NCBI GenBank assembly: GCA_038503065.1
Contig: JBCAMK010000003.1
Location: 248,001-312,000, forward strand
Origin: Paragyromitra xinjiangensis
Lineage: Eukaryota > Ascomycota > Pezizomycetes > Pezizales > Discinaceae
Reading direction: 5' to 3'
DNA length: 64,000 nt
Below are positions 48,750-54,232 of this stretch, piece by piece. Every line of letters starts with the position of its first letter. Within the stretch, counting starts at the first letter, position 1. A program made the translations under genes and the position numbers. Under the pieces are notes generated by a model that made no database searches, was not told where the DNA came from, and saw only the letters and a list, made by a program, of their open reading frames with translations.

Positions 48750-51700
48750 TCAATCATTATCTTCATCTACCAAAGTTAACCTACTATTCATATTTGCAAA
48801 CTTCTTGAAATCATAAAAGTCATACCCTGTCTCAAAGTCAATCGGTCCGAGTCCCATCTCAAGGAGTGCACCATTGACAGCCTTGGCAAATTCTTCTACC
48901 ACACTCTTCCACTCTCCCTCCTCGTGCCCAACCATGGTTAGAAAGTACCGGACCACTTCATCTGCTTTTGGTATGTTGTGTTCTACCAGTACTAGCCTTT
49001 TTAGGAACCTTGCAAATTCTTCCGTATCATCTTCGTGGGGTCCGAATTCCGCACACTGCTCATACCAGTCTGATAGTGTGTCTCTAATTTGTTCTATAGT
49101 TCCGACCGCCCTTCCACTACCCAAAGTGTATTGTTTACTCGGCATTGGTAGCCTTACAGCACTGGCTAAGCGTTCACGTTCAGCAGCTTCTTTCAGCTCT
49201 TGCTTACGGACAGCTTCAAGCCTTAGTTCGCGTGTTTTCACGGCCTGGGCTATTTGATGTTGGCGGGACTCCTCGTCGACTGCTTCAAACCATTCTCTAT
49301 CCACCTCTCCCTCGTCGAATAGCCAACTAGATACATCGTTGCCTTTCATGTCGAGAATTCTCTCATGATTGACATTGGCCACAGAGGGACCTGCTTTTGT
49401 TCCTGGCGGACGACCTCGTTTCTTCTTTGGTGGCGAGTCAACTCCGCTTCTTCTAAAAGGTACAGGTTTGATCTTCTTTGGGCTTTGTGGGGGTGTGACT
49501 GATGCATTGTTCGCCCATGGGAGAGGCCTGTTTTTTCGTGGACTTGGAGGGAGAGGTTTTCCCTTGTTGGGGGGCGCAATACCTTGTTCTCTTGCTATTC
49601 GCCTGTTCTCTGCTTCGTGTTCCGCTATGATTTCCGCTCTCATTTCACTCCCTAGCTGGTTCCATATCTCGATATCGTACTGCGAACCAGGAGGTGGCTG
49701 ACTTGAGGGTTGGGGTTGCATGAATTCTTCTACTACTATTCTTTGCTCCTCTTCTTCTTTTTCCTTCATCTTCTGCATGATATAGTTCCTGTGTTGTGTA
49801 GGCAGGTATGGTAATACTTCTGGATCAACCCCCATAGATATATCAATTTGTGTGCCCATTGGAATGTCGGGTAATTGTTCCGGCTCCTGCTGCACCTGCA
49901 TCAGTTGAGCTTTCTCTTTCCGCGCAGCAGCTATCTTCGAGAAGGAATCTAGTAGTGTCGCAACTTTTGGCTTGACGTAAGCTTTTATTGGTGGCCGTTC
50001 TGGTGGTACGTTTTCTTCTCTAATCACCACCTCCGGTTTCTTCCCATTACTTCCTTCACCAGCAGTATTCTTCAAGGGTTCCTTTGCAGGTTCCTTTTTG
50101 AAGTAATCCAACCTCTTTTGACTTGAATCAGACTTTCCAGGTTGGATCCCCTCCAATCTCGCAATAGTTAACCCAAGACCTCTCAGCTCTCCAGGAGAGA
50201 TCCTGCAAGTCCTTAACATGGTCACTGCCTCTTTTCCAATGATATCCTTATTGGAAGTTGCGACACCGAGAGTAATACTTTTATTCAGTGTGTCGCATTT
50301 GCCGCAGCCCAAGTGTTTAGGTGTAATGAATGGTGCATTTGCTGCTCTTTTACTAACTTTAAGCGTCAAGTGTTTGCCTTTGACACCTTCTTGCTTCATT
50401 CTTTTCTCGATTTCCTCCGCAATATCCAACAAGAATTTTTCGGCTTGTTCCTGGTTTTCGAAACGGATACCCCAGTTACTGCCCAAAGATTAGTTACCAG
50501 ATCCTCAACACGGATAAGATGGCATAACTTACACATCTACAGAAACGCTTTTTCTGACAGTCATTTGGCCCACAACCGTATCATCAAGACCTCTGCAGTA
50601 TCCCCATAACTTCTCGCCGGTCTTCTCTCCCAATAGATTCTTCAGCCTTTCCTTGCTGATACCTCTAACATCCCTAACTTTATTTGTACCTAGTTTTTCC
50701 TCAACCTTCTTTGCAATGTTGTATCCAATTCCCGGCAATTCACGGACCTCAACTTCGTTCATAAATTCTAACACTGCAGTACTCTTGATGGAATATTGAC
50801 CGGCTGGTTTTGCTTTCTTCATCGCCAATTTGGCCAGTAGGACATTTCCGCCAATTCCAACTGAGACCTCAAGACCTCCCGTTTTTTCTCTGCAGTTATT
50901 TCTGATCTGAGTTGCGATTACCGAGGCCATGCTCTCCTCTTGCTCAATTTCCAACTCCATATCGCAGCAGAGATTACTAATATCTACCAATGCTTCATCT
51001 ACACTAACAGCCTGGACTCTTTCCGCTCCTGTTGACAATATCTCTTCGTAGAAAGCTTTGCTCGCCGCTTCGTATTTGGTGAACTCATAAGGTAAACAAA
51101 TAATTCCTGGGCACAGCTTCCTCGCTTCCTCCATCCACATCCCGTTCTTGACACCGAACTCTCGGGCTACGTAGTTACAGGATGCTATATCGGAGGAGGT
51201 ACTGTTCTCAGCGTTACCATGAGTTATTGCGACAGGCTTACCAGCTAGGTCAGGACGATCACGCGTAGACACGGCGGCGAAAAAGCAATCGAAGTCAACG
51301 TGAAGGATGTACCGTCGCGGGCGAGATTTATTCGGTTTTATCTGCCCAGTGGATGATTTAGCTTCAGCGAGAGCTTGAAGCTCTGCACGAAGTTTGGCTT
51401 TCCCTATTTAGAGATGTGGTCAATTAGCTGGGAGAGGAAATGCGAGAGTGGGTGAATTACATGTACTTAGCTGGTGCAATCGACTTTCTTCATGAAACTT
51501 TTGCAAAAACCCAGGATTTAGGCATGTTTGTTCCCTAATGCCAGGGTTCGACAGGTATGTCGCCATTTTTTGCTCAGCGGTCATTTGGGAGTGTAAAGTT
51601 GCCTCTGGAGGGGGCACTAGGCTTTCCTCTGGAGGACGAGAAGGTCTTTCTAGGGGCTCTGCGACTTTTGGCAAGTGCTGGGTTATTGGTAGAGCTTCAC

Positions 51701-54232
51701 GTTCTTCAAGAAGCTCGACAGGGGTTAAGAATTCCATTTCAAATGGGTCACCATCATCTACCATGTTTACGTTTTCAAGAGAGTCGTGTTTCTCGGCTTC
51801 CCCTCCTTCGTCTTCCATAGGATCTGGGAGGTTTATGGGGGAAACGATATCCTTCGTCGGTGGTTTTGGGGCTTGCGCTATATCAAGATCTTCCCCAAGT
51901 GTCTCTTCCTTAAAATCACCGGCAAAGTCCACAGGGGTACCGTATATAGATTCGAAGCTGCCATTTGGGATTTGTGGCGAATCTCTTTGATTGCTTTTGG
52001 GCTGGCTCGAATTATTGGCTGCTGGTGCTACTGGGCTCTTCGCTATCGATTCTCCAACCATCTGGGTAAACAGCTTGCCGCTTTCGCTGCCCATAATCTG
52101 CTCCTCCTCAGCTCCCCAACCAAAGTCCTTGTCCTCGTCCATCATATCCTCGGGGGAAAGGCTGTCTCTTATTTCCCTATCGTCGTTGACTGACCACAAT
52201 CCGACTTTTGTGTCCACAGCAAGATTAGTTCTTTTAAAGCGTTGTGAAGGGTTCACCTGAGAGGCGCCGTATGTTTTTTCCGTATTTGTTTTAGCTATCA
52301 GTCGTTCTTCTGTTTTCTTATTTTCTGGTGGTTGTCGTACCACAATTACCGAGGCTGGTGACGAAGATCTGACGATAGGTTCCTCCATCACCACATCTTC
52401 GGCTCTACTATCTTTATCATCCAAGCTCTTCAGCACCTTTTTAGGCACTTCCACAGATACCTTCGCTTTTTTATTCTCTTCCTCGTTCTCAGTTCCACTT
52501 TTTCTTCGTTGCATCCTGCGCCATTCTTTCAGTAGCTTATCAAATTCTCCATCCTTCAGGTCCTGCTTGAGTTGCCGTTCAGGCTCCCACGACGCTTCTT
52601 CAAGCGGATACCCCTTCCATAACACAAGATATTCCGTCCATGCGCGCCGATTCTTTCGTTTTGGGTAGTTGTTCTCGCCGATGAAGGCTTCCACTTCATA
52701 AGCCTCTTGACCGTCAATTATTGTCACTGCTTCTGGCCTAGATGATGGCGCTGACACTAGTGGCCCCAGTTTTGGCGATGTTCTCGTTCTCGACTTCTTA
52801 GATGTTGAGGGTTGTTCGGATACTAAGGGTGCATGGATCTTTTGTATTTCGGCGGCTTTTTGGGCCAGGTGTGGCAGGAAGGTATTTAGTGATAGAGATG
52901 AATGTGTAGATGAGAATATATTGGGTTTAGGTGTTGCTGGATTGGGTTGAGCTGCGCCTTTGGGGAGGATGGGGCTGGAAGGTGGCATAAAGACTAGATT
53001 TACGGGGTCAATGTCTTCATCCTCGTCTTCCTCCCTACTAGGTTCGAGGATGATCCCTTGTTTTTCCTCCTTAGGTGGGCATAGATGAGAATCGATCTGC
53101 GGGAAGGGTGGCTGGGTTTTATCTTGTTCATTGGATTGTCGTCGAGGCTGATCATCCGAATCCTGTGTGAAGCTTGTATTATTTGTAGGCAATTGATATG
53201 ATGGAAATTCGTCATACTCATCGGGATCAAGCTCGTCTGAAGGAGGGATTACGATATCCCTCGGCAGCGAACTCGATCCAGGGCGGGGTTGGTCCACTAC
53301 TTTCTTTATGGACGAGCTAGGTGTGGCTATTGGTTGAGACACATATTGACCTATCTTTGTCGCCTCTTTTGCTCTCGAATTTTCGGGCGTAGTAATTGGC
53401 CAATTCGTTGCCCTACTCGATGGCCCAGTTTCAGAAATCTGTCGTTCTACTACCCTCTTCATGAATGACGACCCTGGTGTAGCAATTGGCCGGTCCACCA
53501 CCTTTTTAATCCCCAGAAAAACACCCGCAGCATTCCCTGGGGAGCCATCCCCACTGGCACTGCTCCTCCGTGAAATAGCAGGAGACGAGAAACTCAGCTT
53601 CCTCTGCGCCGGTGTCTCATCAATAAGTCTAAACTCGTTCCATGGCAGCAGCACTCCTGCCTTAATGCTCTCCGTGATCCACTCAGGTCTTACAACTTTA
53701 TACCTGGAGAACTCAACTCGTTTCTTTAACGTAAGGTTAGAAGCGATTATATGTGTTACTTGTGTTTTCCCCTCCAGATATTGAAAACGGACACCACTGT
53801 GCTTGACAATGAGTTGACCTAATTCGTACGGCGTGGGGTAAGTTTCGCCGTTTATCCAGATTGCGAGGCCACGGAAGAGGGGAGGGTAAGAAGGTGCATG
53901 TTCTGCACGTATGTATGCATCACGGTTCTGAAGCTTGATGCGCTTATTGCGCATATAACTGTCACGAGGGTGATTTAGCCCTTGCCCATAGAAAGTATAA
54001 AATGCACTATCGAGGTGGGTGATTTACTCTCCTACTCCTCCAAATTTAGAAGCTTCATATTCTTCTCCTTCTCCGCCATTAAAACTACCTGTACAGCATC
54101 ACCATTCACAAGTCAGCACTCAGCCTGACGCTAACTGGGTAAACGAGATGCAGGAAGGGGTAGCGCACGAGCTTCGAGTTTCTTCGCCAGCTCTTTGGCC
54201 TTCTGATCAGAGGCCTCGAGCCTCCGAGCCAT
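48750..54232 (-). CDS. REV1: DNA repair polymerase Rev1 with inserted chromodomain and AT-hook
   Basis: Rev1 is the Y-family deoxycytidyl transferase that scaffolds translesion synthesis. Minus-strand exons 54232-54136, 54088-54028, 53958-51467, 51403-50533 and 50478-48750 join in frame to 1749 residues, much longer than yeast Rev1 (985). Order: EEYEASKFGGVGDYMRNKRI and a BRCT domain (about 77-166); a disordered linker with a chromodomain at about 473-532 (YEVEAFIGENNY, EYLVLWKGYPLEEASWEPE); the Rev1 segment ESRLHQL; the catalytic core (HVDFDCFFAAVS about 918, SVDEALVDIS about 1016, SCNYVAREFGVKNGMW); two ubiquitin-binding motifs (VDPEVLPYLP; IWNQLGSEMRAEIIAEHE); an AT-hook (KKKRGRPPG, about 1525); and a C-terminal domain. 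The chromodomain is within the same uninterrupted exon as the BRCT, so it is not a gene-model fusion. Confidence 0.93.

Follow-up and report, generated by a model that had tools for sequence, protein, structure and literature searches.

Rev1 is a scaffold of error-prone DNA synthesis, and the way in which chromatin state steers such synthesis is an open question. Its fungal forms usually carry three ubiquitin-binding motifs (UBMs), placed between the little finger and the C-terminal domain; ubiquitin binding has been shown for UBM2 alone of the Rev1 UBMs, in human and yeast, according to an excerpt of PMC11276120, and the numbering UBM1 to UBM3 used here is a fungal one that implies no correspondence to the human or yeast motifs. 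In chicken cells, H3K9me2 at a silent locus is greatly reduced without rev1 and kept in pcnaK164R (available part of PMC3145961), and this therefore provides a precedent for Rev1 upkeep of repressive chromatin without PCNA ubiquitin. Here we describe a REV1 gene of Paragyromitra xinjiangensis that encodes a chromodomain between its BRCT domain and its polymerase core, and in which most of the UBMs have decayed. It lies on the minus strand of a stretch of 64,000 nucleotides (assembly GCA_038503065.1, contig JBCAMK010000003.1, positions 248,001 to 312,000), called the window below, to which all coordinates refer.

Four short GT-AG introns divide the predicted gene into five exons, which would encode a product of 1740 amino acids. 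This splice model was built from GT-AG sites and homology to annotated Tuber REV1. A genome-wide profile search found its REV1_C match to be the sole one in the 48.2-Mb, 22-contig assembly. In the Pfam scan exon 3 carries BRCT_2 and Chromo, exon 4 carries IMS, and exon 5 carries IMS_C and REV1_C, and the HVDFD and SVDE motifs of the core are both intact. Judged by its core, BRCT and C-terminal domain, on which orthology rests, the gene is a genuine REV1 variant.

An earlier note, made from the sequence of the window, had proposed a chromodomain inside this Rev1, and the Pfam profile PF00385 finds it at 36.9 bits (E 3.5e-9, cut-off 25.1). The domain occupies residues 462-521 (52700-52521, minus strand), between BRCT and the core and wholly within exon 3; the note was right to place it in a single exon, with the end of that exon now at 51461 (53958-51461, previously 53958-51467) and the residue numbers moved from about 473-532. 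The open reading frame (ORF) 53954-51420 (minus strand) encodes BRCT and then YEVEAFIGENNYPKRKNRRAWTEYLVLWKGYPLEEASWEPERQLKQDLKDGEFDKLLKEW, stop-free and in an unbroken frame. AlphaFold2 (AF2), a check that the note had suggested, predicts a chromodomain fold for the segment, with strands packed against a C-terminal helix.

The aromatic cage is complete, as had been claimed, and its first Tyr and its Trp are those originally named; the Trp of SWEPE (W499) is conserved yet lies outside the cage, the third residue being Y492. We take Y24, W45 and Y48 of the HP1 cage to be equivalent to Y462, W489 and Y492 of the window Rev1, and HP1 Y24 is named in the titles of PDB entries 6asz and 6mha, two structural matches of the predicted fold. 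Across all nine rows of the cage alignment the aromatic residues are retained, P0012 having Phe in place of the last Tyr, which is a statement about sequence positions and does not imply cage geometry. The closest sequence matches of the domain are CDYL, CDYL2, CDY1, CHD1 and HP1, and the structural matches of the AF2 model, like the sequence matches, are mostly methyl-lysine readers.

The domain is not peculiar to the window gene, since the survey of related fungi that the note had called for returned it in 18 further proteins, Tuber and Choiromyces among them. With P0001, which is identical to the window ORF, this makes 19 proteins with a Rev1 chromodomain (hereafter chromo-Rev1) among the matches listed. 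They include 11 relatives (P0002-P0012), P0017 from ENA, the very divergent P0161, whose BRCT scores 22.8 bits against the Pfam cut-off of 27.3, and annotated proteins of five species: Tuber melanosporum, T. magnatum, T. brumale, T. aestivum and Choiromyces venosus. Not all of the 19 are full-length: several are partial ORFs, with no Pfam BRCT in P0011 and P0012, and some stop before the core. The protein lists are a similarity-ranked sample and no census (the best 120 of 430 and the best 120 of 1078 matches), and a search with the Tuber chromodomain alone, in which 34 candidates were scored, returned five Tuberaceae proteins. Among the matches listed in the three protein searches there were no named pezizomycetes outside Tuberaceae.

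For comparison, 193 non-chromo Rev1 proteins were taken, namely those returned outside the chromo set with at least 1000 amino acids, shorter ones being dropped; the best score of a Rev1-chromodomain profile among them is 1.1 bits. The row sets differ between analyses: nine in the cage alignment, 12 chromo rows in the core tree, and 19 (the window and 18 others) in the chromodomain tree and profile. In a tree of the polymerase core, built without the chromodomain and UBM regions and with 35 hand-picked non-chromo rows (P0080 and P0187 were lost, their core pattern not being found), all 12 chromo-Rev1 rows form one clade with support of 100/100. The stem of this clade is long, at 0.98 changes per column; the Orbiliomycetes adjoin it, by a weak join (85/32) where long branches meet. 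On the best reading of this tree, the chromodomain would have been gained once, in an ancestor shared by all the chromo-Rev1 lineages sampled. Alignment by eye covered the chromodomain in 19 rows and MAFFT in 17 (P0011 and P0012 omitted), and in the MAFFT alignment constraint on the chromodomain is close to that on BRCT, with the linkers drifting. Conservation, the single clade and the predicted fold thus support maintenance of the chromodomain as a functional module.

Decay of the UBMs is a feature beyond the observations of the earlier note. Eight chromo-Rev1 rows have the tail: the window model together with P0013-P0017, P0161 and P0221, the seven of the 19 returned proteins that reach the C-terminal domain. 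Both UBM2 and UBM3 are without Leu-Pro in all eight, and UBM1 keeps it in three (the window, P0017 and P0161); all three UBMs contain Leu-Pro in each of the 17 non-chromo Rev1 proteins chosen by hand for comparison. We built a UBM profile from five non-chromo rows (15 stretches), a source that favours the non-chromo group, and counted its matches solely in the C-terminal half of the proteins. Every one of the 193 non-chromo Rev1 gives at least three matches over 5 bits, 188 of them having Leu-Pro in three or more UBMs and the other five having Ile-Pro or Leu-Leu in one motif. The same profile gives a single match, at UBM1, in six of the eight chromo rows (6.4-9.9 bits), while the window reaches 4.7 bits at best, at UBM2, and P0161 gives no match at all. 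The Pfam UBM profile, a check independent of our own, recognises three motif stretches in Orbilia P0018 (84.4 bits); it lists no UBM for P0015, P0017 or P0161 with the E limit set at 10 (HMMER filters apply), nor for exon 5 of the window with the limit set at 1. Elsewhere in the same genome Pfam UBM reaches 41.3 bits at another gene, with nothing listed at Rev1 up to E 10.

The genome contains a RAD18 gene (190.4 bits), with RING- and UBZ-like cysteine patterns seen by eye, and a PCNA gene with the context GVKFS, whose lysine we take to be K164; a Pol-eta-like gene retains its UBZ (48.1 bits). Because these and a UBM elsewhere in the genome remain, the decay looks specific to Rev1.

We consider it probable, if well short of certain, that the chromodomain of chromo-Rev1 is kept as a module and that binding of a histone mark has replaced, or supplements, ubiquitin-dependent recruitment. 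The chromodomain would have entered the linker between BRCT and core in the ancestor of the sampled chromo-Rev1 lineages, and the tail motifs that bind ubiquitin would have decayed in the same clade. By way of its aromatic cage, Rev1 would dock on a histone tail that is methylated, most likely at H3K9 and possibly at H3K27, with the BRCT and C-terminal domains still touching the primer end and Pol zeta. Chromatin state, instead of or besides ubiquitin on PCNA, would then set the recruitment or retention of Rev1, and chromo-Rev1 might help in copying silent chromatin. A stronger form, in which a transposon-derived chromodomain and UBM loss made a histone methylation mark the recruiter of Rev1 in place of ubiquitylated PCNA, is one that we hold only tentatively.

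Gain and loss fall on one branch, and a causal tie between them would be argued from plausibility and not from repeated events. The two may simply have coincided on a long branch, with recruitment by ubiquitylated PCNA persisting through UBM1 or some other site and the chromodomain conferring a modest chromatin preference. This account draws on the single clade with its long stem, on the Leu-Pro that survives in UBM1 of three rows, and on the retained RAD18 and PCNA K164; it fits poorly with the disappearance of Leu-Pro from UBM2 and UBM3 in all eight rows and from UBM1 in the five Tuberaceae, and with the Pfam negatives given above, and we regard it as rather doubtful.

Turning to the source of the domain, the genome has 107 chromodomain places, for the most part in Ty3/gypsy-like families; the sequences read were 30 loci and 40 further regions. 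The likeness to Ty3/gypsy integrase chromodomains that the earlier note had remarked on is supported by profile score, the best in-genome matches of the Rev1-chromodomain profile being of this type: L037 at 45.9 bits and L011, of the same family, at 39.5 bits, the L011 ORF bearing rve and H2C2 (Pfam). Rev1 chromodomains and this integrase-type family share the lead-in I-x-G-x-x-x-Y-E-V-E, and in-genome chromodomains taken as non-element score at most 25.5 bits. Among the places read, the family that by profile score is most similar to the Rev1 domain is a Ty3/gypsy-like one with a IEGQLEYEVEYIV lead-in. Capture from a chromovirus integrase, which the note had raised, is thus a plausible origin towards which we lean, favoured by the profile scores and contested by the tree and the CDYL comparison that follow.

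Two results weigh against such a capture. In pairwise scores CDYL exceeds all in-genome elements for the window (129 vs 102) and for P0161 (115 vs 98), and the chromodomain tree joins L040, a chromodomain gene of the same genome, to the Rev1 rows at 96/97 without nesting these among the integrases. The chromodomain of L040 (G000:C10:1456000-1458200) is N-terminal and scores 40.9 bits; in the 432 amino acids scanned, its 3' end being open, Pfam finds no integrase domain or any other. Both results would suit a copy from a host chromodomain gene rather than a retroelement. This origin strikes us as somewhat improbable: L040 sits on a long branch (1.3), is without the I-x-G-x-x-x-Y lead-in that Rev1 rows and integrase-type domains have, and scores 25.5 bits against the Rev1-domain profile where L037 scores 45.9, and for Tuber the best in-genome element (121) exceeds CDYL (106). 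In the chromodomain tree, two label changes are required for the 19 Rev1 rows, and a branch sets them apart from all other rows in 9% of the bootstrap trees, since L040 may fall among them. That tree left out near-duplicate rows of transposable elements (TEs), antisense artefacts and rows under 48 amino acids. Since the domain is short, the branches are long and the TE and host labels are pattern-based guesses, it settles neither the origin nor, by itself, a single gain.

The ligand side of the proposal is also represented in the genome. Two Pre-SET genes encode predicted H3K9 methyltransferases: L032 (G000:C4:573488-576739), which by eye reads as a DIM-5-type enzyme, and L031 (G000:C6:1396444-1399749), with Pre-SET, SET and a weak chromodomain piece. 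A chromo-shadow search for HP1 in the genome gave no match, and its control gave none either, making it uninformative. One observation counts against a simple HP1-like reading: the position of HP1 V26, which is Val in the window and near rows, is taken by Pro in Tuber, P0012 and P0017 but by Ala in P0161. A preSET_CXC match and a VEFS box indicate that H3K27-type machinery is also present, and H3K27 methylation is a possible target for this reason.

Binding to methylated histone would be expected of a domain with these residues, and we infer it from the cage and its relatives. A folded and conserved chromodomain could instead bind a non-histone ligand (DNA, RNA or another repair factor), with the UBM decay unrelated. 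We think this unlikely, as the positions of Y462 and W489 do not vary in the nine aligned rows, that of Y492 is always Tyr or Phe, and the best matches in both sequence and structure are mostly methyl-lysine readers. Least probable by far is an artefact of gene model or assembly: the model does rest on splice sites and homology, but a missed intron, frameshift or chimera is rejected because, as the earlier note had held, no intron, frameshift or stop interrupts the one continuous exon, and the predicted REV1 protein of separately annotated genomes likewise includes the domain, and a recent retroelement insertion is rejected because Pfam finds the chromodomain alone there and the whole clade has it.

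Table 1. Features of the P. xinjiangensis REV1 gene, in window coordinates.
Feature	Position	Strand	Remarks
REV1 gene	48750..54232	-	Splice model; exons 54232-54169, 54088-54028, 53958-51461, 51403-50533, 50478-48750
N-terminal M1-like motif EYEASKFGGVGDYMRNKRIKLQNRD, residues 31-55	53919..54062	-	Intron 54027-53959 falls inside
BRCT domain, residues 67-153	53625..53885	-	Pfam BRCT_2 39.6 bits, cut-off 27.3
Chromodomain with N-terminal I-x-G-x-x-x-Y extension, residues 455-521	52521..52721	-	Pfam PF00385 36.9 bits; AF2 fold
Cage residue Y462 codon (HP1 Y24)	52698..52700	-	Invariant, 9-row alignment
Cage residue W489 codon (HP1 W45)	52617..52619	-	Invariant, 9-row alignment
Cage residue Y492 codon (HP1 Y48)	52608..52610	-	Tyr in 8/9 rows, Phe in P0012
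Y-family polymerase core (IMS) with HVDFD and SVDE motifs	50817..51311	-	Pfam IMS 130.6 bits, scored on the exon-4 ORF from 51272; start moved out to the HVDFD motif
Little-finger domain (IMS_C)	50142..50477	-	Pfam 50.6 bits
UBM1 remnant	49758..49829	-	Leu-Pro present in window, P0017, P0161; gone in five Tuberaceae
UBM2 remnant	49605..49685	-	Leu-Gly in place of Leu-Pro (NQLGSEM); 4.7 bits
UBM3 remnant	49242..49307	-	Without Leu-Pro (EAVDEES)
REV1 C-terminal domain, residues 1624-1713	48834..49103	-	Pfam REV1_C 53.9 bits

Among the other features, the N-terminal motif is similar to the start of the annotated Rev1 proteins of Tuber and Orbilia, and this likeness suggests the Rev1 M1 motif, a name taken from the part of PMC11276120 available to us. 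Two linker regions also stand out. Upstream of the chromodomain, an island DI(V/T)IPPSDE is followed by acidic residues and FPSYQ (53232-53258, minus strand); a pattern written from the chromo rows matches 11 of the 19 chromo-Rev1 and none of the 193 others within the first 700 residues, and the island resembles a SUMO-interacting motif. Downstream (51696-51959, minus strand), the short patches SFESIYGTPVDF and FEMEFLTPVELLEERE, with TP sites, are conserved in near relatives and are possibly docking or phosphorylation motifs.

Titles and abstract starts of open-licence PMC papers yielded no report of a chromodomain in Rev1, and a precomputed Pfam Chromo label is already on Tuber REV1; as far as the open-licence literature reaches, the domain appears to be annotated in databases but not discussed. 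A natural fusion of Rev1 with a chromodomain, accompanied by UBM decay, offers a direct test of chromatin steering. Should the proposal hold, mutagenic bypass, and possibly the inheritance of repressive marks, would depend directly on chromatin state, and translesion synthesis would have been rewired in a fungal lineage. More speculatively, the fusion suggests a way to tune mutation rate in silenced DNA.

Compared with a canonical fungal REV1, that of Orbilia blumenaviensis (P0018), the window protein has the same N-terminal motif, BRCT, HVDFD/S(V/I)DE core, IMS_C and REV1_C in the same order; the Orbilia protein differs in having three UBMs and, like all 193 non-chromo proteins, no chromodomain. 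The window Rev1 falls outside the group of UBM-bearing tails, with Leu-Pro UBMs, that those 193 form. Relative to the methyl-lysine readers CDYL/CDY, HP1/CBX, MPP8 and Rhino/Oxpecker, the Rev1 residues beside the cage differ from HP1, and we know of no chromodomain of these families joined to a DNA polymerase. Chromodomains are among the TE-associated domains listed for fungal host-TE fusions in an excerpt of PMC10799480, in which no Rev1 fusion was found. Finally, the Rev1 domain resembles the C-terminal chromodomain of chromovirus (Ty3/gypsy) integrases in its lead-in, and departs from it in having no integrase part and in ending with a KEW-type sequence where the integrase domain ends with FH-RYP.
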